30,148 bases of DNA, taken from positions 17,765-47,912 of IMG/VR virus record IMGVR_UViG_3300030102_001157; one strand, given 5' to 3'. Source of the DNA: a virus. The position numbers and the translations under genes were made by a program. The notes under the pieces are model-generated. The model was given only the letters and a program-made list of their open reading frames with translations, made no database searches and was not told the DNA's origin. Shown here in pieces: positions 898-30,148 of the stretch (position 1 is the stretch's first letter; every line of letters starts with the position of its first letter).

Positions 898-2289
898 ATG
901 AGTGCATACATTAACACATTGAAAGACCTAGAAGCAGCCACTTACGGTTACGCTGGCGCACAGGGCAATGCCCTTTTGAAGTCGTCAGGTGTTGTCGGTG
1001 GTTTCGGAACGCCCCATGACGCAGCAAGCAACCCGTTTACGGCATCTGCTGCTGGTTTGGGAGACCTCTACAACGTTCTTTACGGACAGAAAGTTTGGTC
1101 AATGCTTAACCAAGAGGTTAACGCTTTGTCTATGCTTGCAAAGAGGCCATACACATCTAGCGGTTGGAGAGTTCTAAAGAGCCGACCTGCTGGTGGAAGT
1201 GGAAGTGCATTCGGTATTGGAAGCACTGACCCCGGTACTGACACTGCTGACCTATCAGGTATCAGACCTGACAGAATTGGTGGTGTTGCAGAGAACGCAA
1301 CTCTTGGTGGAGATTCTTCATTCAGAGCATTGTCTCCTGAGTACACCAAACTATACGTCAGCCCAAAGACTGTTGCTCACTTGTTTGAGTTCTCAGAACT
1401 TGGTATGGAACTTGCTGCTATCGATGATGGTGTAGGTGACATTCGTGCTATCGTTAGAGAGGACATGGGTAAGCACCACGCTGAAGTTCAGCAGAAGATG
1501 CTACTAATGCCACTTGAGCAATACGATGCTGGTTTCGCTGACATCGACAGGAACTACACTTCTCTAATGAAGATAGTTTCGTCTGCTGCTGAGATTGCTG
1601 CAATGTATAACGACAACCTACTAGACACTGCTAAGGAAGACGCAGGTACGGATGCAGTTGTTGATGATGTTGTAAGGCTATTCGGTACTGCCCGAACTGT
1701 CAACATCACTGGTTCGCATGGTAGCAACGAGGCAGCAGTAGGTGTTGCTTCCTTCTTGGATGCAGAGGTTGACTTCGGTGCAGGATATGCTTCGGGTAAC
1801 GCTAGGGTTCTAACTCTAAGCCTACTTAATGACATGATTCGCAGAATCCGTCAGAATGGTGGAAACCCGAAAGTCATACTAACTGGATATGACACGGTAC
1901 AGGCTATCGCTGACCTATTGCAGAGCCAAGAGAGGTTCATGGACAGGAAGGAGATTGTTCCAACCCACAACGGAGTTCGTGGAGTCAAGGGACAGGAAGT
2001 TGGTTTCAGAGTTGCAACATACTACGACATACCAATTATCCCAACCAAGGACATGCCTTCCACTGGTGCAAACACAACCAACGAGTTGAGTGACATACTT
2101 CTGCTAGACACAGACCATCTGTGGCTATCAGTCATGAAGCCTACACAATACTTTGAGGATGGTATCACTAGTGGAAACCCATTCGGTGTTGGCAAACTTG
2201 GAAACCAAGGAATGTATCGAACTATGGGAGAAACCGGATGTTCGTTCTTCAAGGCCCAAGGTAAAATCACCAACATCAAGAGTGCTTGA
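898..2289 (+). CDS. Major capsid protein, HK97 fold
   Basis: A 463-residue protein, starting at ATG 898 with AAGGAG at 881-886, one base after the scaffold stop. The N-terminus is Gly/Ala-rich and extended. Residues ~148-205 (YVSPKTVAHLFEFSELGMEL, then IVREDMGKHHAEVQQKML) look like the strand plus long spine helix of the HK97 P-domain. Near the C-terminus, DIPIIPTKDMP (~378-388) and ILLLDTDHLWLSV followed by PTQYFED (~400-421) match the A/P-domain ending common to HK97-fold capsid proteins of phages and archaeal tailed viruses. Residues ~208-325 contain a less conserved Ala/Asp-rich stretch that may be a surface insertion. There is no N-terminal delta domain, consistent with a separate scaffold. 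The protein assembles the icosahedral shell. Codon use is very regular (GGT, GCT, GAC, AAG), as expected of a highly expressed gene. Confidence 0.85.
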   Translation: MSAYINTLKDLEAATYGYAGAQGNALLKSSGVVGGFGTPHDAASNPFTASAAGLGDLYNVLYGQKVWSMLNQEVNALSMLAKRPYTSSGWRVLKSRPAGGSGSAFGIGSTDPGTDTADLSGIRPDRIGGVAENATLGGDSSFRALSPEYTKLYVSPKTVAHLFEFSELGMELAAIDDGVGDIRAIVREDMGKHHAEVQQKMLLMPLEQYDAGFADIDRNYTSLMKIVSSAAEIAAMYNDNLLDTAKEDAGTDAVVDDVVRLFGTARTVNITGSHGSNEAAVGVASFLDAEVDFGAGYASGNARVLTLSLLNDMIRRIRQNGGNPKVILTGYDTVQAIADLLQSQERFMDRKEIVPTHNGVRGVKGQEVGFRVATYYDIPIIPTKDMPSTGANTTNELSDILLLDTDHLWLSVMKPTQYFEDGITSGNPFGVGKLGNQGMYRTMGETGCSFFKAQGKITNIKSA

Positions 2290-3177: not shown

Positions 3178-3603
3178 ATGCCAAGTATAGATACAGATAC
3201 CCGGCTAGTAATGACAGTTCTCTTCGTTGGTGCAATTAGTGGCATTAACGTCTACTTCTTTTCACAGTATGGTTCAACCTTCGTTAATGCATATGGTCCT
3301 TATCCTGTCGCTGTCATATTCGGTGTTTTGACAGTAGGTGGGATAATGATATTGAAGGCATTATTCGATTTGATACTAAACGACTACATTGAGGATTTCC
3401 TACTTCAGCGACAAATCAACGCTTATTGGAACAGAAAGGCAAGAGACGAGGACAACAGAAAGAGAGTGAGGGAATCCATGAGAAACTTCCAACAGCAGTT
3501 TGGAGTTCCTATGGTTTACGGAGACAATGTTCTACCTAATCTCCCACAGACCCAAGAGACACAAACTGTTAGTCCTACTTTCCTGACAGGTTTCAATGAG
3601 TGA
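3178..3603 (+). CDS. Membrane protein with two transmembrane helices
   Basis: A 141-residue protein. GAGGTG (3167-3172) overlaps the previous stop and lies 5 nt before ATG 3178. Residues ~10-30 (VMTVLFVGAISGINVYFF) and ~42-66 (YPVAVIFGVLTVGGIMILKALFDLIL) are clear transmembrane helices. They are followed by a strongly basic, amphipathic segment (~75-105, RQINAYWNRKARDEDNRKRVRESM) and a Gln/Thr/Pro-rich tail. The hairpin-like topology with a charged helix is not diagnostic. It sits directly upstream of another membrane protein and a GTPase, which suggests a membrane-linked function. Holin is possible in principle, but the position inside the head module and the long charged tail argue against it. 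Confidence 0.65.
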   Translation: MPSIDTDTRLVMTVLFVGAISGINVYFFSQYGSTFVNAYGPYPVAVIFGVLTVGGIMILKALFDLILNDYIEDFLLQRQINAYWNRKARDEDNRKRVRESMRNFQQQFGVPMVYGDNVLPNLPQTQETQTVSPTFLTGFNE

Positions 3604-3608
3604 TTAAT

Positions 3609-3830
3609 ATGGTTAGTGAAATCTTATTCGGGATGGATGAATCCACTCTCGCATATGATTTACAAAGGGCGCACTCTGCTGACGTTTGGTTTCTAAGAGC
3701 AAGGTTTTGGCTTTGGGGAACACTATCATCCATTGCTTGTTTCTTTCTAGGACATGCAGTTGCGGTGTTTGGAGTCAACCTGTTCTCAGGTGGATGGCAT
3801 GTACTAAGTTCCCTTTGGGGCGGTCATTGA
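3609..3830 (+). CDS. Small single-pass membrane protein
   Basis: A 73-residue protein starting at ATG 3609, with SD-like GAGTGAT at 3598-3604 overlapping the previous stop. An in-frame GTG at 3600 would add three residues. Residues ~1-28 are amphipathic (ESTLAYDLQRAHSADVWFLR). Residues ~30-56 (RFWLWGTLSSIACFFLGHAV, continuing AVFGVNLF) are strongly hydrophobic and likely span the membrane; the end is Gly/Trp/His-rich. Its function is not recognised. It is sandwiched between the two-helix membrane protein and the GTPase, so the three may form one unit. Confidence 0.5.
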   Translation: MVSEILFGMDESTLAYDLQRAHSADVWFLRARFWLWGTLSSIACFFLGHAVAVFGVNLFSGGWHVLSSLWGGH

Positions 3831-3884
3831 CTTCTCAACCATTTTAATGCTCTTCGACATCCGACTCACTGACGAGGTGATAGT

Positions 3885-4556
3885 GTGTCGGTAATGGCAG
3901 GTTTCGCAATACTTATTGTAGAAGCAATGAACAAGTTGTATAATCGTCTTCATGCTATCAATTTCGGTATTTATGGAGCAAGCAAAGCAGGTAAAACCAC
4001 ACTACACAAGCAACTGACTACTAGAGGAGAAGTTCCTGAAATACAGAAAAGAACAGTAGGTAGACATAGAGCGACTAGAAAGTTCGTGAAGATAGATGGT
4101 GATGCACATACTGTAAAGACAGCAGACATTGGTGGGCAGACAGTATATTGGGGTGAATGGGTCAAAGACATGCGTAGTAGACATGTCAAGTATGTCATAT
4201 TCATGTTTGATGATAGGCATCTTAGTAAGCACTACGATATCGAGCAACAACTCTGCTGGACATTCCTAGTAGATACAATCTGCAATAAATACTGGGAAAC
4301 TGGTGGTAGAAAAAAGAAGAAGCAAGACCATGACTTTCCTTTGGCAGTTGGTCTTTGGGCAAACAAGTATGACTTATGGAAAGACAAATACCCATTCAAC
4401 GGAAAAATCGAAGACCATCCTATCTTTGAATCATTCAAGCCGGGACTTCAGAAACTAAATGATGCAGGTATTCCTTGTCACAAATATATCGTCAGTGCCA
4501 AGTCTGATTCTGAGATGGTATACCGAGGAGTCCTAACAATGATAAAAGACTACTAG
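3885..4556 (+). CDS. Arf/Ras-like small GTPase with hydrophobic N-terminal helix
   Basis: A 223-residue protein. The start is GTG 3885, with GAGGTGAT at 3874-3881; ATG 3894 is an alternative. The GTPase motifs are in order: G1/P-loop GASKAGKTT (31-39), candidate G2 threonine at T57 (RTVGR), G3 DIGGQ (81-85), G4 NKYD (160-163) and G5 SAK (204-206). DxGGQ in G3 is the hallmark of the Arf and G-alpha branches, and the P-loop context (GKTTLHKQL) also resembles Arf (GKTTLLKQL). Residues ~1-22 form a hydrophobic or amphipathic helix placed where Arf proteins carry their membrane-binding helix. A basic insert (RKKKK, 142-146) lies between G3 and G4. In the family such proteins are GTP-dependent switches. 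No GAP or exchange factor is visible. It follows two membrane proteins. Nucleotide binding is well supported; the viral role is unknown. Confidence 0.85.
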   Translation: MSVMAGFAILIVEAMNKLYNRLHAINFGIYGASKAGKTTLHKQLTTRGEVPEIQKRTVGRHRATRKFVKIDGDAHTVKTADIGGQTVYWGEWVKDMRSRHVKYVIFMFDDRHLSKHYDIEQQLCWTFLVDTICNKYWETGGRKKKKQDHDFPLAVGLWANKYDLWKDKYPFNGKIEDHPIFESFKPGLQKLNDAGIPCHKYIVSAKSDSEMVYRGVLTMIKDY

Positions 4557-4571
4557 TTAGTCAGGGTAGAC

Positions 4572-4590
4572 AGGCTCATGGCGTGAGCCT
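4572..4590 (+). other. Short perfect hairpin upstream of the zinc-finger gene
   Basis: AGGCTCA (4572-4578) and TGAGCCT (4584-4590) form a perfect 7-bp stem with a 5-nt loop. The stem would bury GTG 4583, which is the far-upstream in-frame start of the next gene, and leaves AAAAGGAG (4594-4601) and ATG 4613 free. No U-tract follows. Confidence 0.5.
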
Positions 4591-4612
4591 ATCAAAAGGA
4601 GTTGAAAAAAGA

Positions 4613-5305
4613 ATGGCAATGCAACAATTTCAGCCTCCAAGTCTTATTGGAGCAACGAATGCAACAGTCAATACAAATGGTATCAATCCCTTCTTAGACC
4701 GCTTTACTGCGGCTAGGGCGGCTGGTCCTGTAATGGCTTATGAATACAAGGCGATGAAGCCTAAGAAGCAACTGAAAGAGATAGTGAAGGTATTGAAACC
4801 TGAGAAGAAAACATTTCTCAAGATACCTTATGGTTTCAAGTACAACTACAAAGACAGATGTGTGATATGTGGAACACAGAAATTTTGGACAGCAGATGAT
4901 ACTAGGAGACCTCCACTTCCACTGCACAAGGTTCGCAAGGGATATCCAATGAGAGGGACTTACTGTGAGAAACATGCAGCGATACACATGCAGTATGAGA
5001 TGCTAGAGCAGCAGATACTAGCAGAAGAACATGGTCTTTCATTCAGTGCTTACATACCCTCTGCCAAGAGTCTGAATCCAGTTAATTTAGTGAAGTCAGG
5101 ACCACTTACCACTTTGAGGCAAGAGGACATCAATTCCCTTGCTTCTTTGGGTTGGAATATATCTCCTCCACAGAATGCTTCAGCATCTCCCGAAGAGCAG
5201 TTATATTCTCTCATGATTCAGCAATCAGCCATGTCAGAGAGAGTTAAGTCCTTATTGACGAAGGGTGTCGAAGTGCCTGTCGAGACAACGGAGAGTGAAG
5301 CATAA
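4613..5305 (+). CDS. Zinc-finger-like protein of unknown function
   Basis: A 230-residue protein from ATG 4613, which has AAAAGGAG at 4594-4601; a GTG at 4583 would add 10 residues but lies in a hairpin. The central part carries CVIC (residues ~83-86) and CEKH (~118-121) separated by 31 residues, a CxxC...CxxH arrangement that fits one zinc-binding site, with another His four residues later. The region before it is Lys-rich and may bind nucleic acid or protein (KPKKQLKEIVKVLKPEKK). After the site there is a helical stretch (MQYEMLEQQILAEEHGL) and a Ser/Pro-rich tail. No family is recognised. It is located between the GTPase and an orphan low-complexity protein, and overlaps the next start by 1 nt (TAATG). 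Confidence 0.65.
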   Translation: MAMQQFQPPSLIGATNATVNTNGINPFLDRFTAARAAGPVMAYEYKAMKPKKQLKEIVKVLKPEKKTFLKIPYGFKYNYKDRCVICGTQKFWTADDTRRPPLPLHKVRKGYPMRGTYCEKHAAIHMQYEMLEQQILAEEHGLSFSAYIPSAKSLNPVNLVKSGPLTTLRQEDINSLASLGWNISPPQNASASPEEQLYSLMIQQSAMSERVKSLLTKGVEVPVETTESEA

Positions 5306-5997
5306 TGGGACTATTCGGAACATCAAACTCAGCACTATCAACGCAAATGAACTCAATGAGCCAACAGAATTTCAAATCTGTCAACAACTTGTTGACGCTT
5401 CAAGAAAACCATGTGGAAGAGTTCTTCCAATATCACGGAGAACAATTCTTGAATGCCTTTGAGCAACTACTAGAGGATGTGACTACAAGAGTAGTCAGTC
5501 AGATGCTAGTCAAACTCAAGATGGTATCCAACAACAATGGAGACTTGGAGATACACCCTGACTCTCTAGCAGAGTTCACGACTATCACGCAAGAGAACAT
5601 AGACTTGGATATTGTCAATCTACTAGCGACTGCTGTTAACTCAGAAGTCATCATGCAGAGAAGAATGGCAAAACAACAGTATCTTGAATCTCAGGGTTTC
5701 ACTTCTCCTTCACAAACTGGCGGGGGTGGGATGCCAATGAATCCACAGGGACTAGACCCTTCACAAATACAGGGTGGTAACATGGCAGTTGGTATGAACA
5801 ACGCTATGATGCAACAGCAAATGGCATTCAACAACCAATCAGGATATCCTGTTCCTCCATCGGGTTATGACCAAATGAACAACCCGTATTGGATTGACCC
5901 TGCTACTGGTCAACCAACGTATACTCCACCACAAAGCGGTCTTGGTCTAGCACAAGGAATAGGTAAAGCCGTAGCATGGGCAAAGTGGTTGGCGTAG
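5305..5997 (+). CDS. Orphan virion-type protein with Gln/Asn/Met-rich tail
   Basis: A 230-residue protein that starts at ATG 5305, overlapping the previous stop. Residues ~1-125 look all-helical and moderately acidic (HVEEFFQYHGEQFLNAFEQL, IDLDIVNLLATAVNSEVIMQ). Residues ~135-215 are low complexity, rich in Gly, Met, Gln, Asn and Pro (GGGGMPMNPQGL, MMQQQMAFNNQSGYPVPPSG), and the C-terminus ends in a short hydrophobic helix (IGKAVAWAKWLA). I do not recognise it. A disordered Q/N-rich tail capped by an amphipathic helix would suit a multivalent internal head protein, but that is speculation. Confidence 0.55.
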   Translation: MGLFGTSNSALSTQMNSMSQQNFKSVNNLLTLQENHVEEFFQYHGEQFLNAFEQLLEDVTTRVVSQMLVKLKMVSNNNGDLEIHPDSLAEFTTITQENIDLDIVNLLATAVNSEVIMQRRMAKQQYLESQGFTSPSQTGGGGMPMNPQGLDPSQIQGGNMAVGMNNAMMQQQMAFNNQSGYPVPPSGYDQMNNPYWIDPATGQPTYTPPQSGLGLAQGIGKAVAWAKWLA

Positions 5998-6012: not shown

Positions 6013-7251
6013 ATGAGCGAGACTGTCATTATAGATACTGAAGTTATTCCAAGCGTGGAAAGAACTTATGAGTTGACCAAAGAAAATGTCGCTGGTTTCA
6101 ATGGTGAGGCTAGAGAACTAGCCGATGACTATCTCATTCCATTTCTATTCAGTGGATTTCCTGCTAACTTCAGAAGAGGCGATGATGCCGACCTAGTTAG
6201 AACTAGAACTCGGAGACTACTGAGTGTAGGTGCTAAGAAGTTTGAGAATGAAGATGAATTCAAGTTCTTCAAGAAGCACATGAAGAAACTATTCACTACG
6301 ATAAAAAATGAAGATGTCCTTTCTTCAGTAGACAGGAATGATACTCTCAAATCCTCTAAGGATGTCTTTGGTCAAGAGAGAACTAAAAAAGAAAAGGATG
6401 AAGACGGCAAGGTGAATGTAGTTTTAGATACTAGCAAGAATCTACTCTATGATAATCTAAAGGGAAAGAAATTCAGGGAACTTACTGAACCTGCTAAACT
6501 TGGTGCTGCGTATACTGGCGGGACGGAAAAAGGGATGGCATTCAGAGGAAAACTAGAACGTGGTGTAGAACCAAAAGACCTGATTGACCAAAAGAAACTA
6601 TTAGAAAATACTAAACTTGCAAAAAATGAAAAAAAAGCAACATACACAATAGAAATGAAGGAATACTATCGAGAACTGTTCAAGACTATGGGCATGGATG
6701 TTGATGATAACTTTGCTACGACAGCAAGGAGAAAGGAAACACAATACCCGACAAAATATCTTGAGACCAAGATAGAAGAACAACTCACTCCAATTCAGGG
6801 AAAGAATCCATCGGATATAGCAGGACTCAAAACCACATATGACACTAATGATAATGTAAAGATGGGCGAGATAAACGAGAATGGAGACTTTGAGCCATAC
6901 ATCGGAAGATTAGATACGTTAAGGGATAAAGCAATAGATGCGTTATTTGAAAAAAATAAGATAGAAGGTTTGCTTAAATTGTTCATGTCAGGAATAGGTG
7001 GATACTTCTTCAGACCTGTTGGTGACGACCAAAGAATAAACATCAATGATGTAATCATAGAGGTAGATTTTGGTTCTTCTATGAAACCTAAAGTCACTGT
7101 CACTCAGACTAATGATGAACTAGATTTGAAACTAATATCACAGAAACAGTTTGTTCAAACAAGTGGGTTAGAAGGAACTAAACCAGTGGCAAAGGTAGCA
7201 AGCATAAATAGACTGGTGCGTAGTATGGACAGATATATATCGAGGTTGTGA
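6013..7251 (+). CDS. Orphan protein in the head module, unknown function
   Basis: A 412-residue, highly charged protein starting at ATG 6013 after a 15-nt gap; only a weak purine tract (GTTGGGG) precedes the start. Residues ~1-95 look helical. The middle (~100-250) is Lys/Glu/Asp-rich with short helices (DQKKLLENTKLAKNEKKATY). Residues ~310-390 seem to form a compact alpha/beta domain (LLKLFMSGIGGYFFRPVGDD, INDVIIEVDFGSS, KVTVTQTNDELDLKLIS). No catalytic motif or membrane segment was found. The gene is more A/T-rich and uses AAA more than its neighbours. It lies between the low-complexity protein and the connector, so a minor head or internal protein is the default guess. Confidence 0.5.
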   Translation: MSETVIIDTEVIPSVERTYELTKENVAGFNGEARELADDYLIPFLFSGFPANFRRGDDADLVRTRTRRLLSVGAKKFENEDEFKFFKKHMKKLFTTIKNEDVLSSVDRNDTLKSSKDVFGQERTKKEKDEDGKVNVVLDTSKNLLYDNLKGKKFRELTEPAKLGAAYTGGTEKGMAFRGKLERGVEPKDLIDQKKLLENTKLAKNEKKATYTIEMKEYYRELFKTMGMDVDDNFATTARRKETQYPTKYLETKIEEQLTPIQGKNPSDIAGLKTTYDTNDNVKMGEINENGDFEPYIGRLDTLRDKAIDALFEKNKIEGLLKLFMSGIGGYFFRPVGDDQRININDVIIEVDFGSSMKPKVTVTQTNDELDLKLISQKQFVQTSGLEGTKPVAKVASINRLVRSMDRYISRL

Positions 7252-7253
7252 AG

Positions 7254-8330
7254 ATGAGTAAACTATCCTCCCCAAGTGATTTTACCAACATTAACGTGAA
7301 CTATTCCCAAGGTAGGGGATTCTATACTACTCACACTGATGTATCTCAGTTATTGCAGATAGCACCATTCAGTTCCTCCACAACACCCTCAATCGCTGAA
7401 GTAGGTAGTCTCATCAAAAGAGCAGAGGAGAGAGTCGATGATGTCGTAGGACATTCATATCGACCAGTAATCTATCACAATGAGTTCCATAACTTTGAGT
7501 TCTTCAGACATGGGGCATACCCGATTCAGAGATACAAGGACTATGTTGGCTTTGTTCAATTAGAGAGAGCAGATGTTCAGAAGATAGTCAGGCTAGAAGT
7601 TTGGAATGGTTCACAGTATATCGACCTAGCATCTGCAACTGCTAGAGTGAAAGTTCCCGCAACTCCTCAAAGTGGTGCTTGGGTCATATCGTTGGGAGTT
7701 GGGGCATACACTTTCAATATAACAAAGGGAACAGACTTCTTTGATAACTATGGACCTAAGACAACCGCTAGTCAGATAGCAGATGCAATCAATGAGGTCT
7801 TCCCACATAAAACTGCCAAGTTCACTGGTGAGACTGCTGCTAAATCTGTCACTGCGAATGGTGCTTCCTCGGTGAACATATCTGATTTCTTCTACGCAAC
7901 GACAGACAGCGAAGCAGGAGATACAGTTGTAATCTCATCCTTGCTTCTAAGTGATGATGGTTCTGCTTGCACAATCTCCTCTACTGTTGGAACTACTACT
8001 CCATTTACAGACCACCAAGACCAAAGAAGACTTGGAGACTATTGGACAATGGGCAAGGATGGCAAGATATTCTTCAGACAAGAATACCCACACCTACATT
8101 CTAACTCAATAAGAGTCGTGTATGTAAGTGGTGAGTCTAGAGTACCAGCAACCATACAAGATGCAGCAACTAAGTTAGTTGCGGCTGAAGTCATACGACA
8201 TGACGACAACTCCATCCTAATTGCCGAGACAGGTTCTAACATCGACCTAAAGACGAAGCATGACATTCTACTAGAAGAAGCCAATGCAATATTGAATGGA
8301 AAGAAGGATGTAATACATTTCATTCTGTGA
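7254..8330 (+). CDS. Head-tail connector, gp6-like, with inserted domain
   Basis: A 358-residue protein from ATG 7254. GAGGT (7242-7246) fits this start better than the GTG at 7248. An early helix (EVGSLIKRAEERVDDVVGHSY, ~45-65) and a final helical pair (~298-345: IQDAATKLVAAEVIRHDDNS, then HDILLEEANAIL) match the helical frame of HK97 gp6/lambda W-type adaptor proteins, which bind below the portal. Ordinary members are ~100-120 residues. Here ~150-180 residues of beta-rich sequence (~100-285; VQKIVRLEVWNGSQYIDLAS, AYTFNITKG, SQIADAINEVFPHKTAKFTG) sit between the two helical parts. Position two genes before the tail tube supports the call; exact family membership is an inference. Confidence 0.6.
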   Translation: MSKLSSPSDFTNINVNYSQGRGFYTTHTDVSQLLQIAPFSSSTTPSIAEVGSLIKRAEERVDDVVGHSYRPVIYHNEFHNFEFFRHGAYPIQRYKDYVGFVQLERADVQKIVRLEVWNGSQYIDLASATARVKVPATPQSGAWVISLGVGAYTFNITKGTDFFDNYGPKTTASQIADAINEVFPHKTAKFTGETAAKSVTANGASSVNISDFFYATTDSEAGDTVVISSLLLSDDGSACTISSTVGTTTPFTDHQDQRRLGDYWTMGKDGKIFFRQEYPHLHSNSIRVVYVSGESRVPATIQDAATKLVAAEVIRHDDNSILIAETGSNIDLKTKHDILLEEANAILNGKKDVIHFIL

Positions 8331-10737: not shown

Positions 10738-11106
10738 ATGACAGAAAAGAAAATTGTAAATGATAAGAATACGCTGTTCGCAAGAATGGCAACCGAAAGC
10801 CATCATCTCAGGGTTTCCCCTGATAGTGATGAGTACCTCCAAGTTTGGGTGAAAGAGCCAACTTGGTTACAGGTAGAACAGGCATTGTCGTCTGTTATGG
10901 ATGTGGATGCTCAAGGACAAACCTTGGGAATCAACCTTAACAAGATGTATCGCTTTATGGTTGAGAACTTCGTAGAGAAGACAGAGCCTCAACTAAACAC
11001 TACCGACTTAATTAGACTCAACCCGTACATCGGGGCGCAACTAAAAGAAATTCTCCCTAATCCATTCTTGGATGTCATGGGGGATGATACGGGAAACGAA
11101 AACTAG
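10738..11106 (+). CDS. Tail assembly chaperone, G-like
   Basis: A 122-residue protein. ATG 10738 is chosen over the GTG at 10726 because AGGTGG (10724-10729) overlaps that codon and must serve as ribosome binding site. It is mixed alpha/beta at the start (HHLRVSP, EYLQVWVKEPTWLQVEQALS), then helical (INLNKMYRFMVENFVEKTEP), ending acidic (GDDTGNEN). Position between the tail tube and the tape measure, the size, and the slippery heptamer just before its stop identify it as the short product of the conserved G/GT chaperone pair. In the family these proteins coat the tape measure during tail assembly and are not in the virion. Confidence 0.75.
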   Translation: MTEKKIVNDKNTLFARMATESHHLRVSPDSDEYLQVWVKEPTWLQVEQALSSVMDVDAQGQTLGINLNKMYRFMVENFVEKTEPQLNTTDLIRLNPYIGAQLKEILPNPFLDVMGDDTGNEN

Positions 11107-11309
11107 TTCGGAGGGCTTTGAAGGGTGGAAAGGTTGATGCAGTTATGGGGATGAAGATAATGCTCTATACATACTGCACTGCTTTTTCCGTTGACCCTAA
11201 AGACGCATATGAAACACCAGCGACCTTAATTAAGGAAATGCTGGAAATACATGGTGAAGTGAAGAAGATAGAATCGGAGGAACTAGATAAAGCAAGAAAG
11301 GGGATGTGA
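10738..11309 (+). CDS. Tail assembly chaperone GT, -1 frameshift fusion
   Basis: The ribosome would read frame 1 from 10738, slip back one base on GGGAAAC (11091-11097) and continue in the frame open from 11088 to the stop at 11307-11309, giving about 190 residues. The T part (VDAVMGMKIMLYTYCTAFSV, then TLIKEMLEIHGEVKKIESEE) is helical and resembles the length and helical character of T domains. An independent TTG start at 11118 behind GGAGGG (11110-11115) could also produce a 63-residue T protein alone, but it is only 2 nt from that motif. The frameshift is the conserved expression mode for this pair in long-tailed phages. Seen: slippery site and overlapping frames. Inferred: the slip itself. 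Confidence 0.7.
11091..11097 (+). promoter_or_regulatory. Programmed -1 frameshift slippery heptamer
   Basis: G GGA AAC in the frame of the upstream chaperone is a canonical X XXY YYZ site; after the slip the tRNAs re-pair with GGG AAA. It sits 7 nt before the zero-frame stop (TAG 11104-11106). A GGGGG run (11079-11083) lies 7 nt upstream and could act as a stimulatory internal Shine-Dalgarno site. I did not find a convincing downstream pseudoknot. Confidence 0.75.
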
Positions 11310-11314
11310 TTTAG

Positions 11315-13306
11315 TTGAGTGGAGTGCAAGACGACATTGACGAACTAAGGAAGTCCTTCAACGACATAGACAAATCTATTCTCGATGGTGCTAAAGAATT
11401 TAGAACTCTCTCAGAATCCATAAGTAAAACAAATGCAGTTTTAGGCTCAAAGAACTGGGTAATTTTCTCAAGGTTCATCTCAGGAACTCCTCTTTGGAGA
11501 GTTCAGAACAGAATCAAAGCAACAGTGATGTTGCTGAATGAACTGCAATTAGCAGGAGAGAAGAGAAGAACTGAACAGGCAAAGGAACTGAAGAACTTCT
11601 CTAAACTCGCTAAACTCCAAAGAGACAACGTAGGAATACAGGATACTCTGAATAAATTGAAAGAACTCTCAACTAAAACAGATGAGAAAAGCGTAGAAGA
11701 ATACCAAAAACAGATGGATGCATTAAGGCAAACCTCGGAAATATTCGATGGATTAGTTTTCAAATTACATGATGAAAACGATGCAATAAAGGAAATGAAT
11801 AGAACAATATCTGCTCAAGTAAAAATGGGCGAAAAACTTCAGGAACAAGCGAAAGAGGCAGCGAGCCTTAGAAAGAAAGAGGGAGAAGGAGAGTTTCAAC
11901 ATCTTGGAAGAATGATGAAGTTTAGAATGAAAAACAACAGCATGATGAAGTCATTCGCTAAATTCAAAGAAAAAACAGACAAAAAAGGATTTGCCTTCAC
12001 CAATAAAAAATATCAGAAAGAAATAAAACTCACTGAAAAAATGAAGAGCATTGCTGCTAAGGCAGGACTAGACCCACAGGAGTTGTTGCGAAAAGATGGT
12101 TCAATGAAAGACCCAACCTCTGACAGAAATAAAAAGGGAGTAGCGATGAGAAGAGGTTCTTCAGGAAAGGTACTAGACCCCAAACAATTCAAAGCACTTC
12201 AGGAATTACACAAACTCGGAAAAAAACAGAATAGCCTGAGTAGACGGTCATACAGAATGATGGCTGCACCATTCAAAGCAATGACTGGTTTCTTCAAGAA
12301 AGTATTAGCAAACATGTTCAAGTTGGTATTCTATGCTACTGCACAATTCATGAAGATGTTATTGCTATTGTTAGTGACAGTAGCCGCATTCAAGATGATT
12401 CAGCCATTCTTAGGCAACATCAAAGACGCTCTTGAAATGGCTGTCAAGGTTTTACTAGATGGATTGGCATTGATATGGAGTGGGTTGAGTAACATATGGG
12501 AAGGCATATCAATGATGGTAGACGCTATAATGAATCCAAGTCTATCGGGTTTCTTTGAGGGATTATGGAAATTACTGACAGGTATGGCACAAGTTGTTGT
12601 TGGTCTATTGCAAGTGGTGTTCGGAACTATAATCGCTGCTGGTTTAGGTTTCATATCTAGTCTGTTTAGTGACGGCGTTGAGAAAATCGGCGGAGGCATA
12701 CGAGGAATAGCAAGTGGAATCGTCAATGTGGTCAAGGGAGTCTCAGGAGTGGCTGCTGGAATACTACTAGTTGTTGGAACTATTGGACTGCTAGTTGGTG
12801 CAGCGTTTGCTCTTCCTGTACTGATTACTGCTGCCGTTCTTGCTGGAATCTACATATTGGTTACTAAGTTTGAAGGATTCTTTGTGGACTTACTTACTGT
12901 CATAGGTGAAGGTATTTCAAAGATTAAAGAGATACTTATCGGGCTTCCAAAAGGAATCGGTGATGCAATCAAGAATATCGGTGGTGGGATAAAGAAAGGA
13001 ATCGGTAAGATTGGTGGCGGAATAAAGGATTTCGTTGGTCTATCAACAGGAGGCAAGATAAGTCAAAGTGGGATGGCAATCGTTGGAGAGAAAGGACCGG
13101 AGTTAGTTACACTTCCTAGAGGGGCGCAAGTACACTCCAATTCACAATCTAAAGCAATGGCATCCTCAGTTACTAATCACATAACTGTGCAAGTAACAGG
13201 TAGAGTAGGTGCAAGCGACACAGAGATACGAGATATCGCAAACAAGGTTGCAAAGGAAATCAACACAAGAATGAATAGAACGTCAACATCGGTGGTGAAA
13301 TTCTAA
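11315..13306 (+). CDS. Tail tape measure protein
   Basis: A 663-residue protein starting at TTG 11315, preceded by GATGTGAT. Residues ~1-330 are charged and helical with predicted coiled coil (~85-190). Hydrophobic helices lie at ~334-362 (MFKLVFY, MLLLLLVTVAAF), ~425-450 and ~476-518, and a Gly/Ile/Lys-rich segment with GGGIKKGIGKIGGG follows at ~548-572. The motif GEKGPELVTLPRG (591-603) is the C-terminal signature found in very many tape measure proteins. It is placed directly after the chaperones. The tape measure sets tail length and enters the host membrane during genome delivery. At the usual ~0.15 nm per residue the tail would be near 100 nm. The hydrophobic segments may help DNA passage. 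Its stop overlaps the next start (TAATG). Confidence 0.88.
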   Translation: MSGVQDDIDELRKSFNDIDKSILDGAKEFRTLSESISKTNAVLGSKNWVIFSRFISGTPLWRVQNRIKATVMLLNELQLAGEKRRTEQAKELKNFSKLAKLQRDNVGIQDTLNKLKELSTKTDEKSVEEYQKQMDALRQTSEIFDGLVFKLHDENDAIKEMNRTISAQVKMGEKLQEQAKEAASLRKKEGEGEFQHLGRMMKFRMKNNSMMKSFAKFKEKTDKKGFAFTNKKYQKEIKLTEKMKSIAAKAGLDPQELLRKDGSMKDPTSDRNKKGVAMRRGSSGKVLDPKQFKALQELHKLGKKQNSLSRRSYRMMAAPFKAMTGFFKKVLANMFKLVFYATAQFMKMLLLLLVTVAAFKMIQPFLGNIKDALEMAVKVLLDGLALIWSGLSNIWEGISMMVDAIMNPSLSGFFEGLWKLLTGMAQVVVGLLQVVFGTIIAAGLGFISSLFSDGVEKIGGGIRGIASGIVNVVKGVSGVAAGILLVVGTIGLLVGAAFALPVLITAAVLAGIYILVTKFEGFFVDLLTVIGEGISKIKEILIGLPKGIGDAIKNIGGGIKKGIGKIGGGIKDFVGLSTGGKISQSGMAIVGEKGPELVTLPRGAQVHSNSQSKAMASSVTNHITVQVTGRVGASDTEIRDIANKVAKEINTRMNRTSTSVVKF

Positions 13307-23819: not shown

Positions 23820-24197
23820 ATGACGATAACGAATACAGGAGCAAACGAAATAGCAGACCATATAGCGGCTACTTACAGGGTGGTAGCAATAGGAAATGGT
23901 GGAGACACAACTTCCCTGCAATCTACTGGTTTGAATAGTTTCGTTAGGATGAAGACAGGAATAATACCCAATGTCGCAGGTTCTTCTCTGATATACAACG
24001 TGAGTTTCACTGGTGCGGAGATACCATCTTCAGGAGTATCCGAACTTGGTATATTCAAAACAGGAACAGGTGAGAGTAGTGGAACGACCCCACCTAACGG
24101 TATTTTATTGAGCCGAGTCACCTTCACAAACACCGGAGTAGTTGGGTCAAGTGACACGGTTTCATTTCAAGTAAGGATAGAGGTGGGTAACGAATGA
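23820..24197 (+). CDS. Tail fibre-base / collar-like beta protein
   Basis: A 125-residue protein with GAGGAT just before ATG 23820. It starts with a short helix (GANEIADHIAATYRVVAIGN) and continues with strands: FVRMKTGIIP, LIYNVSFTGAEI, VSELGIFKTG, ILLSRVTFTN, TVSFQVRIEV. The order 'helix - aIGnGg - fvRm - f.v.f...e - selGiF - lLsRv.f - v.f.v.i.v' is a pattern of short phage proteins encoded just upstream of fibre genes. Its stop overlaps the fibre start by 4 nt (ATGA), so expression is coupled. It likely links fibre to baseplate. The pattern recognition is from memory of similar marine phage proteins. Confidence 0.6.
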   Translation: MTITNTGANEIADHIAATYRVVAIGNGGDTTSLQSTGLNSFVRMKTGIIPNVAGSSLIYNVSFTGAEIPSSGVSELGIFKTGTGESSGTTPPNGILLSRVTFTNTGVVGSSDTVSFQVRIEVGNE

Positions 24198-27100
24198 CAT
24201 CGAATACAGGAATAATAAGTGGAATGGATACCAGCGTAGCACAACTGAAAGACGGTGTTGACAATATTCATAGTGGTATAATCAAATCACTTCAAGCGGC
24301 TACTGGTGATAACAGAGGAGTAGATGGATTTGATTTAACACAAGGCACAAGCGGTGTTCCAGCCACTACTAGATTCACTGTTAGTAGCGGTAAGTTTCTC
24401 AGAAACGGAAAGTTGTTTTCTATTGGGACTCAAACTAATCTAGATACTACCACTAACACGATACAAAGCGGAAGTTCTGATTGGTATGGAGTAATCGTAG
24501 TCTGCGATGGTACAGAGAGTGGAGAAATAGCAAATACGTTGCAGTGGAGACATGGTGCAGTCACAGGATACAATCTTAGAAACACATCTGCCACTGTTGC
24601 AGAATTAAAGGGTGGAGACATACCAATCATTGTTGTTCAGATTGCTGCTGCTTCTGCTAGTAATGTATTTCCTAGAAAACATCAGTATCTACCATACGAA
24701 CAAGCAGACAGGGAGTTCTCTGCATTTGACTCAGGAACAGAGAGACTGAGAATAAACAAGGGAGGAACTTTGACACACACTCCTAGTTCTACTGCATACA
24801 CACTAACTCTTCCCTCTGCTAGTGGAACAGTTGCTTTGACATCCGACCTATCAAATCTAGCAGCAGGTAGTCTAGCAAGTGGTGCAGTGACTAATGCTAA
24901 ACTTGCAGACAATGCAGTTACAGAAACCAAGATACAAGAAGATGCTGTTACGTTTGTAAAGATGCAAGACCTATCTGCTGCATACAAGTTAATTGGGACA
25001 GGAAGTGTTTCAGGGCAAGTATCTGAAGTTTCAATTGAAACAGGTCACATATCTGATAACGCTGTTACTAATGCCAAGATAATTGATAATGCTGTTACTT
25101 CAGCAAAGATTGCTAATTCTACAATAGTATCGGGAGACTTGGCAAGCGGAGCAGTAACGCTGGACAAAATGGCTGATATCGCTGAAGATAGAATACTCGC
25201 AAGAATAGCAAGTGGTACAGGAAATGTTCAGGCAATTACTCCGACTCAGTTAAGGACTTTAATCAATGTAGAGAACAATGCCGATGTCACTAACACTGCT
25301 AGAGTAAAGTCTGCTTTAGGTGGAGACTTAGGTACTGATTTTACAATAGGAGAGAGTAACGATGTTACTACTGTTGCTGGTAATCTTACAGTAGCAGGAG
25401 ATTTGACTATCAGTGGAACTACAACTACAATCGATTCAAACAACGTCAACATAGGAGATAGGATAATCACCCTAAACTCAGATTTGACAGGTACGCCACC
25501 AGCATCTGAAGACGCAGGGATAGAGATAGAAAGAGGAAGCCAGTCTAATAAGTCGCTAGTTTGGGATGAAAGTGCAGGAAGATGGACAGTAGGTTCTGAG
25601 ACATTCGTTGCAGGAACATTCATCGGTAATCTAACTGGAACTGTGACACATGCTACTGCTTTGGCTACCTCTAGAAACTTCTCGATATCAGGAGATGTCA
25701 CTACCTCTAATTCAGTATCCTTCGATGGTACTGGAAACGTTGCATTGGCTACTAGTCTTGCAGCAGGAGTTGTAGATACTGCGGAACTTGCTGATTCAGC
25801 CGTTGAAACCGCTAAGATTGCAGACCTAAATGTTACTAGAGGTAAGATTGCAAATGATGCCATAGACTCAACTAAACTTGAAAATGATGCGGTGACTAAT
25901 ACAAAGATAGCAGATGATGCTGTTAGAACTGCTCATATCGCAGATGACCAAATCACTGCTGACCATATGGCAAACAACTCTGTGATTCAAACTGCAATTG
26001 CGGATAACGCAGTAACAAATGCAAAACTGGCGGGTAGTATCTCTCAATCCAAGATATCAAACCTAACTTCAGACCTAGCAGGAAAACAGGCAACATTGAC
26101 GTTTGGTGCTGGTCTATCGAACTCAGGTGCTACGATAAACGTAGACATTAGTGAGTTGAGCGTTGAGAATGGAATAGACAAAGACAATGACCATTTGATG
26201 TTCAACGACAATGGAACTCTGAAAAAGACGACCTTGACCAATATATTCTCCAAGATAGGTACATCAGACCTACCAAGTATTCCCGCTTCTAAGATAACAA
26301 GTGGTACATTTGCTGTCGCTAGGATACCCAACATAGCAACTAGCAAGATAACAAGCGGAACATTTTCCACATCTAGAATCGCAGATAATGCAGTTACATT
26401 CGACAAGGTTCAGGATATTGCATCAGGTGTACTTCTAGGTAGAACTACTAGTGGTACAGGTGGCATAGAGACAATTTCAGCGTCTGCTGCTAGAACATTC
26501 CTCAATGTGGATACTGCTGGAACAGACAATTCAACAAATGTTACTCTAGCAGGAAGCAGAAATTATCTGACTTTAAGCGGTCAGCAAATCACATTAGGTG
26601 AGATAGACATCTCAGATGATACAAATCTAGTGGCAGGAACTAACATATCACTATCAGGAGATACTTTGAATGTAGATACCGACTTGTCCAATTACAATAA
26701 CTCTACCTCCGGTTTCCTAACTGCACACCCCACTATATCCAACGCACAATCTAACACCACTAACACAGGTAGAACCTACATTCAGAATCTAACATTTGAT
26801 TCCAATGGTCACGTTATTGGTGTAGCAACTGCTACTGAGACTGTTACGGATACTCAATACTCAGTCGGTGATGGTGGTCTATCACAGAACAACTTCACTA
26901 ACAGCCTAAAAAGCAAATTGGATAACATTGCTGATAATGCAAATAACTTCATCCTACAACATGCCAGTGACTCTACATTAGGTGGAATAAAGGTAGGTAG
27001 CAACCTAACCATGAATGCAGGTACAGGAGTGCTGTCTGCCGATACTCAATCCGATATCAACTTCACTTCAGCACTGAACACCAAGTTGGCAGGTATAGCA

Positions 27101-30100
27101 GCAGGAGCAACTGTTGGTGCAGACTTCTCAAGTAACGTATCAAACATCTCAGTCACGAATGCTCAACTCGCTGGTAGCATAGCGAACAGTAAACTGGCAA
27201 ACTCATCTGTAACAATCAATGGAAGCACCGTTGCTCTAGGTAACAGTATTACTCTCACAACTGCAAACGTAGCAGAAGGCTCAAACCTGTACTATACGGA
27301 TGAAAGAGTAGATGACAGAGTAAACGCCTTGCTAATTGACGGTGAGGGAATAACAACGACCTACAATGATGCAACTGGTGAATTGACGATAGATGCTGAA
27401 GACGCAACTGCATCAAACAAAGGAGTAGCGTCTTTCGCTAGTGCTGATTTCGATATTAGTAGCGGGGCAGTTAGTGTAAAGTCAGGAGGAATAACAAATG
27501 CACAACTGGCTGGTTCTATTGAGAATGACAAACTGCTGGCTATCGCACAAGGTAAGGTAACTGGTCTTACAGCAGCCTTGAATGCAAAGATAGAGAGTCT
27601 TAGTGACCTAAGTGTAACTGCTTCTGCCGCAGAGATAAACATATTAGATGGGGTGACAGGAGTATCTGCTGCTGAGATTAATCATCTAGATGGAGTGACA
27701 TCATCCATACAGACACAACTCAATGCAAAACAAGCGGCTGGTAGTTACCTTTCGACATCCTCAAGCATCTCAGACTTGTCAGATGTAAGTGGATTGGATA
27801 CAAGTCTGACGAATATAGGTGGACATAACACATCCATTCCAACTAGCACTGCTGTAAAGTCATATGTGGATGTTCAGATATTCGATGCTATTGATACTCA
27901 GTATACATTGAGTGCTATTGATGGTGCTACATCGAATGCTAAGAAACTTGTACTCGATGGTATAGATGGCTCAAGAACAACCATTGGTTTTCAAGGAGTA
28001 GGAAACATCTCAGTTTCAAGAAACGACTTGGGGTTGACAATCGATTCAGTAGCCAAACCAGTAACTTCAGCAGCATTCAGTGGCAATACCTTAACTATGA
28101 CAAAGACAGATAGTACGACATTTACTGCTACTATACCTGATGCAACAACATCTGCTCATGGTCTGATGACTGACGACCAGTTTGATAAACTGGCTGGAAT
28201 TGAAGCGGGAGCAAATGTCACTGACAAAGAGAATGTTGTCGCTGCTCTTGCACTTCTCGATGAGAGTGATACTCTACACATTGGCGATGCTGGCAATGAC
28301 ACTACTGTTAGGGTTAGGGGCAATCTCTTTGTTGATGGGACAACTACAACAGTGAATCAAACTAAGGTAGAAGTTCAGAATGCATTCGTCTTTGAGGGGG
28401 CTACTGCCGATGCTCACGAAACGACCCTGACGATAGTTGACCCAACTGCTGACAGAACAATTAGCCTACCAAACATAAGTGGAACTCTGATTACCACTGG
28501 TGATACAGGAACAGTATCTTCAGGTATGGTTGCAACAAACGCAATAACGAATGCCAAGTTAGCCGACAACTCTGTTGATACTGCTGAGATAAAGAACAGT
28601 TCTGTCACAGAAAACAAGATAGTAAGTTCTGCAATCACTCATTCAAAGATATCAGATGGAGCAGTCACTACTGCTAAGATTGCTCTTGGAGGTGTGAATA
28701 CACCAAGACTCGCTGATGATGCGGTTACTCCTGCTAAGATAAGCGTGTTCGATGACAACCTAGTAGCAACCACCACGCATATCCTGATTGGGAGTGGTAA
28801 TGAGTTTGACAACTATCCATTGTCAGGTGACATCACTATGACAAACACAGGTGTCACATCGATTGGTAGTGGTAGAGTAACAACATCGATGTTAGCAAGC
28901 AATGCTGTCGCATTTGACAAACTACCGACATTAACTGGACCTGCATTCATTGCTAGGAGTGCAAGTGGAACAGGAGATGTAGAGTCAGTTAGTGCTGCTA
29001 ATGCTAGAACCATGTTAAACGTGGAGGATGGTGCTGATGTAACTGATGCAACAAATGTAGCGGCAGCAGGAGCAGTGATGGATTCTGACTTCACATCTAA
29101 CGGATTACTTAGAAGAACAGGTGCAGGGAGTTACACAGTAGTTGCAGTTGATGCTTCAGGTCATCCTAGTATATCCGCAGCAAGCGATAGTCTCAACTCA
29201 GGAAGAACATACATACAGGATATCGAACTTGATAGCAATGGTCATGTAATTGGTTTGGCTACTGCTACCGAGACAGAGGTAAAGAGAACACAGCAGGAGA
29301 TTGAGGACTTCGTTGGTGGGATGGTCACAGGCAATACTGAGACTTTCATCACAGTTAGTTACAGGAATAGTGATGGAACACTTGACTTTGAAGTTCCTGT
29401 AAAAGACGAAGACGATATGGACTCTAATTCTGCAACGCATCTCGCTACGCAACAATCCATCAGGGCGTATGTGGATACCAAAGTATCGGATTTAGTCAAT
29501 AACGCACCTGAATCATTAAACACTCTCAGAGAGATAGCAGACGTACTAGGAAATGATGCTAACATAACAGGTACGATAATCGATGCTCTTGGGAACAGAT
29601 TGAGAGTTGACACGGCTTCACAGGGACTTAGTGGAACACAGCAATCCAATGCTAGAACCAACTTAAATGTGGATGTGTCGGGAACTGACAATTCAACACC
29701 AATGACATTAGCATCAGTAAACAACAACTATCTCAGTGTATCAGGAACTGACAATCAGACAATAACTGCTGGTGTTGTGCCTATCTCACTGGGAGGAACT
29801 GGGGCTACAACTGCGGCTGCTGCAAGAACTGCGTTAGGAGTAGATGCTGCTGGAACACAGGTCTCAACGGATGTCACATTAACTGGCAGTGGTAACTACT
29901 TGAGTATCAGTGGACAAACAATCACAGTTGACCCAATAGACATCTCGGATGATACTAACCTAACTGCTGGAACTGGTTTGACCCTAAGTGGAGACACACT
30001 AAACGTAAATGCTGCACAATCAGGAATAACAAGCGTTGGAACACTATCCTCTCTAACTGTATCAGGAGATGTCACAGTAGACACTAATGATAACACATTC

Positions 30101-30148
30101 AAGATAGATACAACGAACAATCGTGTGGGCATTGGAACAGCAGTACCC
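24194..30148 (+). CDS. Tail fibre, modular, cyanophage-like, 3' partial
   Basis: The frame is open from ATG 24194 (GAGGTGGG at 24180-24187) to the right edge: 1985 codons without a stop, so the true end is outside. Residues ~1-170 form a distinct N-terminal domain (MTSNTGIISGMD, WYGVIVVCDG, IPIIVVQIAAAS) that probably attaches to the baseplate. The rest consists of Ser/Thr/Asn/Ala-rich repeats: many 'DNAVTNAKLAD' units, 'SAAEINILDGVT' (27618-27700, twice), 'GDLTISGTTTTID', 'SGTDNST.VTLAG', 'DISDDTNL' and 'NRVGIG' at the edge. I recognise these as modules of trimeric fibres in marine cyanophages and pelagiphages. The role would be host adhesion. The receptor-binding tip or intramolecular chaperone, if present, lies beyond the window. 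Confidence 0.82.
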   Translation, partial: MTSNTGIISGMDTSVAQLKDGVDNIHSGIIKSLQAATGDNRGVDGFDLTQGTSGVPATTRFTVSSGKFLRNGKLFSIGTQTNLDTTTNTIQSGSSDWYGVIVVCDGTESGEIANTLQWRHGAVTGYNLRNTSATVAELKGGDIPIIVVQIAAASASNVFPRKHQYLPYEQADREFSAFDSGTERLRINKGGTLTHTPSSTAYTLTLPSASGTVALTSDLSNLAAGSLASGAVTNAKLADNAVTETKIQEDAVTFVKMQDLSAAYKLIGTGSVSGQVSEVSIETGHISDNAVTNAKIIDNAVTSAKIANSTIVSGDLASGAVTLDKMADIAEDRILARIASGTGNVQAITPTQLRTLINVENNADVTNTARVKSALGGDLGTDFTIGESNDVTTVAGNLTVAGDLTISGTTTTIDSNNVNIGDRIITLNSDLTGTPPASEDAGIEIERGSQSNKSLVWDESAGRWTVGSETFVAGTFIGNLTGTVTHATALATSRNFSISGDVTTSNSVSFDGTGNVALATSLAAGVVDTAELADSAVETAKIADLNVTRGKIANDAIDSTKLENDAVTNTKIADDAVRTAHIADDQITADHMANNSVIQTAIADNAVTNAKLAGSISQSKISNLTSDLAGKQATLTFGAGLSNSGATINVDISELSVENGIDKDNDHLMFNDNGTLKKTTLTNIFSKIGTSDLPSIPASKITSGTFAVARIPNIATSKITSGTFSTSRIADNAVTFDKVQDIASGVLLGRTTSGTGGIETISASAARTFLNVDTAGTDNSTNVTLAGSRNYLTLSGQQITLGEIDISDDTNLVAGTNISLSGDTLNVDTDLSNYNNSTSGFLTAHPTISNAQSNTTNTGRTYIQNLTFDSNGHVIGVATATETVTDTQYSVGDGGLSQNNFTNSLKSKLDNIADNANNFILQHASDSTLGGIKVGSNLTMNAGTGVLSADTQSDINFTSALNTKLAGIAAGATVGADFSSNVSNISVTNAQLAGSIANSKLANSSVTINGSTVALGNSITLTTANVAEGSNLYYTDERVDDRVNALLIDGEGITTTYNDATGELTIDAEDATASNKGVASFASADFDISSGAVSVKSGGITNAQLAGSIENDKLLAIAQGKVTGLTAALNAKIESLSDLSVTASAAEINILDGVTGVSAAEINHLDGVTSSIQTQLNAKQAAGSYLSTSSSISDLSDVSGLDTSLTNIGGHNTSIPTSTAVKSYVDVQIFDAIDTQYTLSAIDGATSNAKKLVLDGIDGSRTTIGFQGVGNISVSRNDLGLTIDSVAKPVTSAAFSGNTLTMTKTDSTTFTATIPDATTSAHGLMTDDQFDKLAGIEAGANVTDKENVVAALALLDESDTLHIGDAGNDTTVRVRGNLFVDGTTTTVNQTKVEVQNAFVFEGATADAHETTLTIVDPTADRTISLPNISGTLITTGDTGTVSSGMVATNAITNAKLADNSVDTAEIKNSSVTENKIVSSAITHSKISDGAVTTAKIALGGVNTPRLADDAVTPAKISVFDDNLVATTTHILIGSGNEFDNYPLSGDITMTNTGVTSIGSGRVTTSMLASNAVAFDKLPTLTGPAFIARSASGTGDVESVSAANARTMLNVEDGADVTDATNVAAAGAVMDSDFTSNGLLRRTGAGSYTVVAVDASGHPSISAASDSLNSGRTYIQDIELDSNGHVIGLATATETEVKRTQQEIEDFVGGMVTGNTETFITVSYRNSDGTLDFEVPVKDEDDMDSNSATHLATQQSIRAYVDTKVSDLVNNAPESLNTLREIADVLGNDANITGTIIDALGNRLRVDTASQGLSGTQQSNARTNLNVDVSGTDNSTPMTLASVNNNYLSVSGTDNQTITAGVVPISLGGTGATTAAAARTALGVDAAGTQVSTDVTLTGSGNYLSISGQTITVDPIDISDDTNLTAGTGLTLSGDTLNVNAAQSGITSVGTLSSLTVSGDVTVDTNDNTFKIDTTNNRVGIGTAVP
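26507..26677 (+). repeat. Fibre module A, first copy
   Basis: A 171-bp in-frame unit encoding the order DTAGTDNST, VTLAGSRNYLTLSGQQITL, IDISDDTNL, LSGDTLNVD. It recurs at the same length at 29840-30010, and partly at about 29672-29775, inside the tail fibre gene. Confidence 0.7.
26754..26850 (+). repeat. Fibre module B, first copy
   Basis: An in-frame unit encoding GRTYIQNLTFDSNGHVIG followed by VATATET. It is matched at 29188-29281 (GRTYIQDIELDSNGHVIG, LATATET). The two copies differ in flanking order, as expected of module shuffling. Confidence 0.65.
29188..29281 (+). repeat. Fibre module B, second copy
   Basis: The second copy of the GRTYIQ...DSNGHVIG unit in the fibre gene. It is followed by a distinct segment (QQEIEDFVGGMV, then AYVDTKVSDLVNNAPESLNT) typical of fibre genes in marine T4-like phages. 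Confidence 0.65.
29840..30010 (+). repeat. Fibre module A, second copy
   Basis: The second 171-bp copy, encoding VDAAGTQVST, VTLTGSGNYLSISGQTITV, IDISDDTNL, LSGDTLNVN. The protein order is nearly the same as at 26507-26677 but many codons differ, so the copies are old or were acquired separately. Confidence 0.7.

Follow-up and report, generated by a model that had tools for sequence, protein, structure and literature searches.

Ras-type switches are central to eukaryotic membrane traffic. In Haloferax volcanii and other archaea, ArvA (OapA) is an Arf-like GTPase predicted to carry an amphipathic helix at its N-terminus; its loss in Haloferax results in fewer vesicles and its overexpression in more, and it is encoded with ArvB and the zinc-ribbon protein ArvC, the latter being a proposed GAP (PMC10927574). 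This Arf-like switch for vesiculation has a wide distribution among the Euryarchaeota (PMC10927574). As far as could be found, viral Ras-type GTPases have previously been known only from giant viruses of eukaryotes, and among tailed viruses of archaea the Magrovirales, which infect marine Poseidoniales archaea, are described as having 90-110 kb genomes, an archaeal replisome, a two-part family B polymerase and an HK97-type head related to that of the Druskaviridae (PMC10768690, PMC12999244). Here, a Ras-superfamily GTPase is described that lies in the head-tail gene block of a virus most likely belonging to this last group.

The window, that is, the whole stretch of DNA analyzed, comprises 30,148 nucleotides (positions 17,765 to 47,912) of the 47.9-kb virus record IMGVR_UViG_3300030102_001157; near-complete relatives are about 90-103 kb in length. 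A relative that was examined whole encodes a family B polymerase in two ORFs, an RFC small subunit, TFB, DNA ligase and ribonucleotide reductase domains, and the capsid protein is related to that of Haloarcula tailed viruses including HCTV-1. As TFB, the RFC small subunit, the two-ORF polymerase and the halovirus-related capsid all indicate a virus of archaea, the archaeal host that the initial annotation set as a condition is supported, and by gene content the virus is an archaeal tailed virus. It is most likely a magrovirus, since the relatives agree with the description of Magrovirales in genome size, replisome, split PolB and HK97-type head, and from this we infer a Poseidoniales host.

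Some further features of these viruses can be recorded. A chaperonin gene is present in part of the GTPase-bearing clade and absent in part, and the 184,733-base contig 3300021958_000021 holds the GTPase gene and the chaperonin gene in two copies each, separated by about 90 kb; this contig is probably a concatemer or an assembly artefact that fuses two viral genomes. Upstream of the window, record positions 10914-12623 encode a protein of 569 aa in which a domain of the PAP2 lipid-phosphatase type is recognized (E 8.6e-12), a possible second link to membrane chemistry in the same virus. At record positions 6446-7783, between terminase and portal, a 445-aa ORF with no Pfam match contains a LAGLIDADG-like stretch (AFIDSDGYI), which suggests a homing endonuclease or similar mobile element. 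The last part of the window (24194-30148) is taken up by a very long ORF that resembles a tail fibre and contains numerous degenerate repeats of xDNAVTxAKIA type.

The GTPase gene (3885..4556, + strand) encodes a 223 aa protein assigned to the Ras superfamily by its motifs, relatives and predicted fold. The start codon is GTG, a choice backed by the N-terminus M-S-x-M-x-GF that is kept in relatives and by a Shine-Dalgarno-like gaggtga (3874..3880, + strand). A predicted hydrophobic helix occupies residues 2-22 (3888..3950), in which G6, F7 and E13 are invariant; the G1 P-loop GASKAGKTT (residues 31-39; 3975..4001), the G2 threonine T57 within R-T-V-G (4053..4055), G3 DIGGQ (residues 81-85; 4125..4139), G4 NKYD (residues 160-163; 4362..4373) and G5 SAK (residues 204-206; 4494..4502) then follow, so that the five small-GTPase motifs first noticed in the sequence are all present and in order. 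Relatives were confirmed in IMG/VR by three overlapping scans (124, 151 and 342), and motifs were counted in 213 full-length viral relatives that are 55-100% identical to the GTPase of the window. G1 (GxxxxGKT), G3 (DxGG), G4 (NKxD) and G5 (SAK) are kept in 213 of 213, and G2 reads TVG, TEG or TIG in 212 and TTK in one. The catalytic G3 residue at position 85 is Q in 67 relatives and E in 146, with no other residue seen and at least three switches between the two on the tree; W92 is invariant. Such motif conservation, together with a catalytic position restricted to Q or E, is the sequence pattern of a working enzyme. The dN/dS of 0.03 is the lowest among the 12 head and tail genes tested, the capsid gene being at 0.15.

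An AlphaFold2 model built with 56 relatives (pLDDT 73, pTM 0.72), which replaced a shallow-alignment model of pLDDT 62, predicts the element order a0-b1-a1-b2-b3-a2-b4-a3-b5-a4-b6-a5 of Ras-type proteins; the switch I segment (48-61) is modeled with low confidence. With element limits of 2-22 for a0, 25-31 for b1, 75-83 for b3, 154-160 for b5 and 198-203 for b6, the element order has b1, b3, b5 and b6 terminate, on their C-terminal side, in G1, G3, G4 and G5, respectively, and in Ras proteins the nucleotide pocket is lined by these strand-end motifs. The structure prediction called for earlier thus yields a GTPase fold in which G4 and G5, at strand ends, are expected to line the pocket. Foldseek returned 1,231 PDB matches at E<=1e-3, and the best 50 of the 1,231 are all small GTPases or G-alpha proteins. 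The top target TM-scores among the matches listed are 0.78 for 6ii6_D, a 164-residue chain within a bacterial effector complex that is probably an Arf, 0.76 for Arl1, and 0.72 for both Arl8b and Rab5. Motifs and modeled fold agree well past chance in identifying a Ras-superfamily GTPase; an unrelated P-loop or ATPase family is ruled out by the invariant NKxD and SAK and by the fold matches.

Placement within the superfamily is less direct. Scans of Pfam, NCBIfam and PHROGs gave sub-threshold yet consistent small-GTPase matches (small_GTP, Roc, MMR_HSR1, SRPRB). NCBIfam small_GTP matches 36 of 36 members of a diverse alignment, its best E of 2.6e-6 falling under the curated cut-off, and the GTPase of the window scores 27.3 bits against a cut-off of 42.5 for small_GTP, 22.8 against 27 for Roc and 21.2 against 21.9 for MMR_HSR1. 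The profile search proposed at the outset therefore points to small GTPases rather than to an unrelated P-loop family, but always below the cut-offs; as fold and motifs are in place, the failure to reach the Pfam and NCBIfam cut-offs is read as the mark of a divergent family. The Pfam Arf model (PF00025) matches 12 of the 36 members, with a best E of 2.5e-4 (3.8e-5 in another scan), and in the records searched no match exceeds the cut-off; the Pfam G-alpha cut-off is not reached either, and scores level with Arf are obtained for the models of Ras, Roc, MMR_HSR1 and SRPRB. The best PDB profile matches (E 0.04-0.06) are Arl8 and 8oun, a 189-residue "GTP-binding protein" which we take to be an archaeal Arf-related protein.

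Arf- and G-alpha-like traits are nevertheless seen in the GKTTL of G1, the T-x-G of G2 and the DxGG[QE]xxxxxxW of switch II. Pairwise z values, which are indicative as they were obtained with single references, are 6.1 for SAR1A, 4.7 for KRAS, 4.0 for GNAI1 and 3.5 for ARF1. With the same single references, and hence again as an indication, residues 1-120 favour SAR1A and KRAS, and for residues 75-175 the alignment is specific to GNAI1 (z 4.4 compared to at most 1.1 for the others). The G5 SAK is Ras-type. An Arf-type myristoylated Gly2 followed by an amphipathic helix was not found in the GTPase: nearly all members have Ser2 instead, and the moment of the N-terminal helix is not beyond that of shuffles (p 0.09). 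The hydrophobic helix of the initial annotation is thus predicted at residues 2-22, but its amphipathic character is not significant. The Arf/G-alpha branch named in the same annotation fares similarly, in that motifs and TM-scores speak for it, and the sub-cut-off Pfam Arf matches, the higher z values of SAR1A and KRAS than of ARF1, and SAK speak against it. In view of the PF00025 scores, Ser2, SAK and the equal Ras, Roc, MMR_HSR1 and SRPRB matches, no Arf membership is called; motifs and fold suggest but do not prove an Arf-like protein, and by sequence and model the GTPase is a new, unplaced Ras-superfamily family with Arf-like features.

The gene order is capsid, SAP protein, g4, g5, g6, GTPase, g8, g9, g10 and adaptor. 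The GTPase is thus flanked by head and tail genes, in agreement with the structural operon of the initial annotation. The block is bordered on the left by a major capsid protein of SU10/HK97 type (898..2289, + strand), with the SAP-domain protein 3' of it (2372-2869, E 5.4e-12), and on the right by g11, a probable head-tail adaptor by position (7248..8330, + strand), a homologue of which is also found in haloviruses and in relatives that lack the cassette. SAP-like proteins occur near the same position in cassette-less relatives as well. The cassette itself consists of g5, g6, the GTPase, g8 and g9 and spans 3178-5997. Its first member, g5 (3178..3603, + strand), has 141 aa; of its two hydrophobic segments one lies near residue 10 and the other near residue 44, and its tail is helical and charged. 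The second, g6 (3609..3830, + strand), of about 73 aa, has at least one hydrophobic segment. Downstream of the GTPase, g8 (4613..5305, + strand) has an invariant CxxC...CxxH and is a probable zinc protein, and the 230 aa g9 (5305..5997, + strand) has an apparently helical N-terminal part, a Q/G-rich middle and a C-terminal ...AWAKWLA. The conserved end of g9, YWIDPxTGQxxYxPP...WAKWL, resembles a WW-type motif plus an amphipathic tail. Directly 3' of the cassette, g10 (window 6013-7251) is hypervariable amid strongly conserved neighbours, being detectable by tblastn in 9 of 90 loci and ranging from 412 to 962 aa.

The order is constant in 202-212 of the 213 loci, so that related viral contigs carry the same gene at the same place, with same-strand neighbours g5 in 210, g6 in 212, g8 in 209 and g9 in 202 of 213; in relatives the median gap between the end of g6 and the GTPase start is 4 bases. 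No GAP or zinc family, PF09845 included, matched g8 among known families, no sequence match to holins was found for g5 or g6, and PADLOC returned no defence system match. In nine cassette viruses ArvB/OapB (PF09846) has no match, and ArvC/OapC (PF09845) has sub-cut-off matches only, which lie away from the cassette and in two of three cases contain an internal stop. With no ArvB and no credible ArvC, the viral cassette is not an ArvABC system.

In analyzing presence and absence, contigs fetched by their capsid gene are free of carrier bias, where contigs fetched by the GTPase hide viruses that lost it. Among capsid-fetched contigs with enough sequence, the GTPase is present in 41 of 41 marine contigs of one clade and in none of 10 of halovirus type. 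A second capsid scan revealed 33 related contigs with capsid and adaptor in which the GTPase, g5, g6, g8 and g9 are jointly missing, the median capsid-adaptor distance falling from 5.8 kb with the cassette to 4.1 kb without it. Elsewhere in ten cassette-less records (32-94 kb) the GTPase, g5 and g8 were not found; the positive control lies outside these searches, the same kind of profile having recovered 21 of 21 carriers in a separate scan. The cassette occurs or is missing as a whole, and is absent in the halovirus type and in two related marine clades; an earlier supposition that all related marine viruses carry the GTPase was refuted by these two clades. When 61 representatives are placed on a capsid tree, the carriers of the GTPase make up one side of a branch (support 81), and one change with no loss suffices for the GTPase. 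By these sequences the cassette was gained once, in one viral clade, a feature that goes beyond the initial annotation. The 223 aa gp117 of HCTV-1, in the same region, was considered as a diverged GTPase and rejected, being the counterpart of the adaptor g11.

No GTPase homologue was found in 50,697 phage records, searches of annotated phages and plasmids were likewise negative at E<=1 and E<=10, and PHROGs gave no significant match, which upholds the earlier remark that no standard tailed-virus head or tail gene is of this type. The viral fold matches listed for the GTPase are all from giant viruses of eukaryotes. The magrovirus and marine archaeal virus literature searched does not mention a GTPase, and the gene tables of Philosof 2017 and Prabhu 2025 could list one. 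One scan with a narrow query produced a sole genome-contig match, the Maricaulis MAG contig NZMJ01000101.1, in which viral synteny is kept; a bacterial gene was rejected, as this is a viral contig of the GTPase group, seemingly mis-binned into a bacterial genome.

The GTPase may act as a late membrane-associated GTP switch that works with the other cassette proteins in assembly or egress, the favoured but tentative reading, to which we give somewhat less than an even chance. It would be expressed late together with g5, g6, g8 and g9, lateness being suggested by position; the GTP form would use its hydrophobic N-terminal helix and/or g6 and g5 to dock at the cytoplasmic membrane of the host, and may there recruit g8 and g9 as well as virion or host components. 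Hydrolysis at Q/E85, possibly helped by g8, would reset the protein, and the late step served could be egress, the deforming of the membrane or the formation of vesicles, or membrane-sited assembly. The membrane siting is suggested by the membrane-type neighbours and the hydrophobic helix, whose moment is not significant. Motifs, modeled fold, dN/dS, cassette linkage, a single gain, hydrophobic segments and the ArvA precedent by analogy argue for such a switch; the helix moment, the lack of ArvB and of a credible ArvC, the absence of a known family for g8 and the existence of relatives that do without the cassette argue against it. A more specific form, in which an Arf/ArvA-type remodelling switch has entered the core genes of a tailed virus as a five-gene, GTP-driven module for egress or membrane deformation, and in which g8 might be a zinc regulator resembling a GAP, is considered unlikely at present.

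Of the other explanations, a soluble GTPase of head assembly, acting as a checkpoint or chaperone, whose hydrolysis times head completion or head-tail joining or which is packed in the virion, is likewise rather doubtful; it would account for the constant order between capsid and adaptor genes and for the strongest constraint of the block, but relatives with homologous capsid and adaptor lack the GTPase and the immediate upstream partners g5 and g6 resemble membrane proteins. As head-tail assembly with this capsid type is independent of the cassette, a clade-specific step is likelier than a general capsid role. Improbable to a further degree is interference with the host, in which the GTPase mimics or titrates a host pathway, for instance of ArvA type, against superinfection or vesicle-borne receptor decoys, or rewires the envelope. 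Very strong constraint across much of the protein and the wide euryarchaeal distribution of the Arf-like switch (PMC10927574) are in keeping with this, but for an accessory gene aimed at the host one would expect a position outside the structural block and occasional loss or replacement, and no loss is seen within the clade. Still less probable is a timer of lysis or egress, by which g5 and g6 form a holin-like membrane lesion at a moment set by the GTPase with g8 and g9: two small membrane proteins do lie directly upstream, g6 being so closely spaced from the GTPase, and magroviruses are thought to be lytic (PMC10768690). Against this, neither g5 nor g6 gave a sequence match to holins. To our knowledge no lysis system employs a Ras-type GTPase, which also counts against the timer. 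The sub-threshold Pfam matches and a few weak AAA matches could be cited in favour of an inert relic, or of a different class of P-loop protein, but this is very improbable given motifs kept in 213 relatives, the Q/E-only catalytic residue and the fold matches to small GTPases and G-alpha.

A strongly conserved Ras-type switch that is fixed in a clade of abundant marine viruses of archaea points to a step of infection, at the membrane or in the host, that is under GTP control, and we know of no studied phage that uses one. The five-gene module defined here bears on how viruses without known lysis systems exit archaeal cells; were the ArvA-type remodelling module true, it would have no precedent among viruses of prokaryotes.

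In comparing the locus to known systems, Druskaviridae (HCTV-1) and cassette-less magrovirus-like relatives have homologous capsid and adaptor genes but are without the GTPase, g5, g6, g8 and g9. Giant viruses of the mimivirus-like, pithovirus and marseillevirus groups likewise encode Ras-superfamily GTPases; however, their hosts are eukaryotic, and their genes, named as Rab, Ran or Ras type, have no fixed place in a head-tail block. With Arf, Arl, Sar1 and G-alpha the viral protein shares GKTT, the T-x-G switch I, DxGG[QE] with a downstream Trp and the N-terminal helix, differing in Ser2, SAK and, in most members, Glu for Gln. Unlike ArvA, it sits in a head-tail block with the extra membrane proteins g5 and g6; like ArvA, which was compared by description, it is a small GTPase of archaeal context with Arf-like traits and an N-terminal hydrophobic or amphipathic helix, and where the ArvA operon has the zinc-ribbon ArvC, the viral g8 carries CxxC...CxxH. 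By analogy, ArvA is thus the nearest functional precedent.
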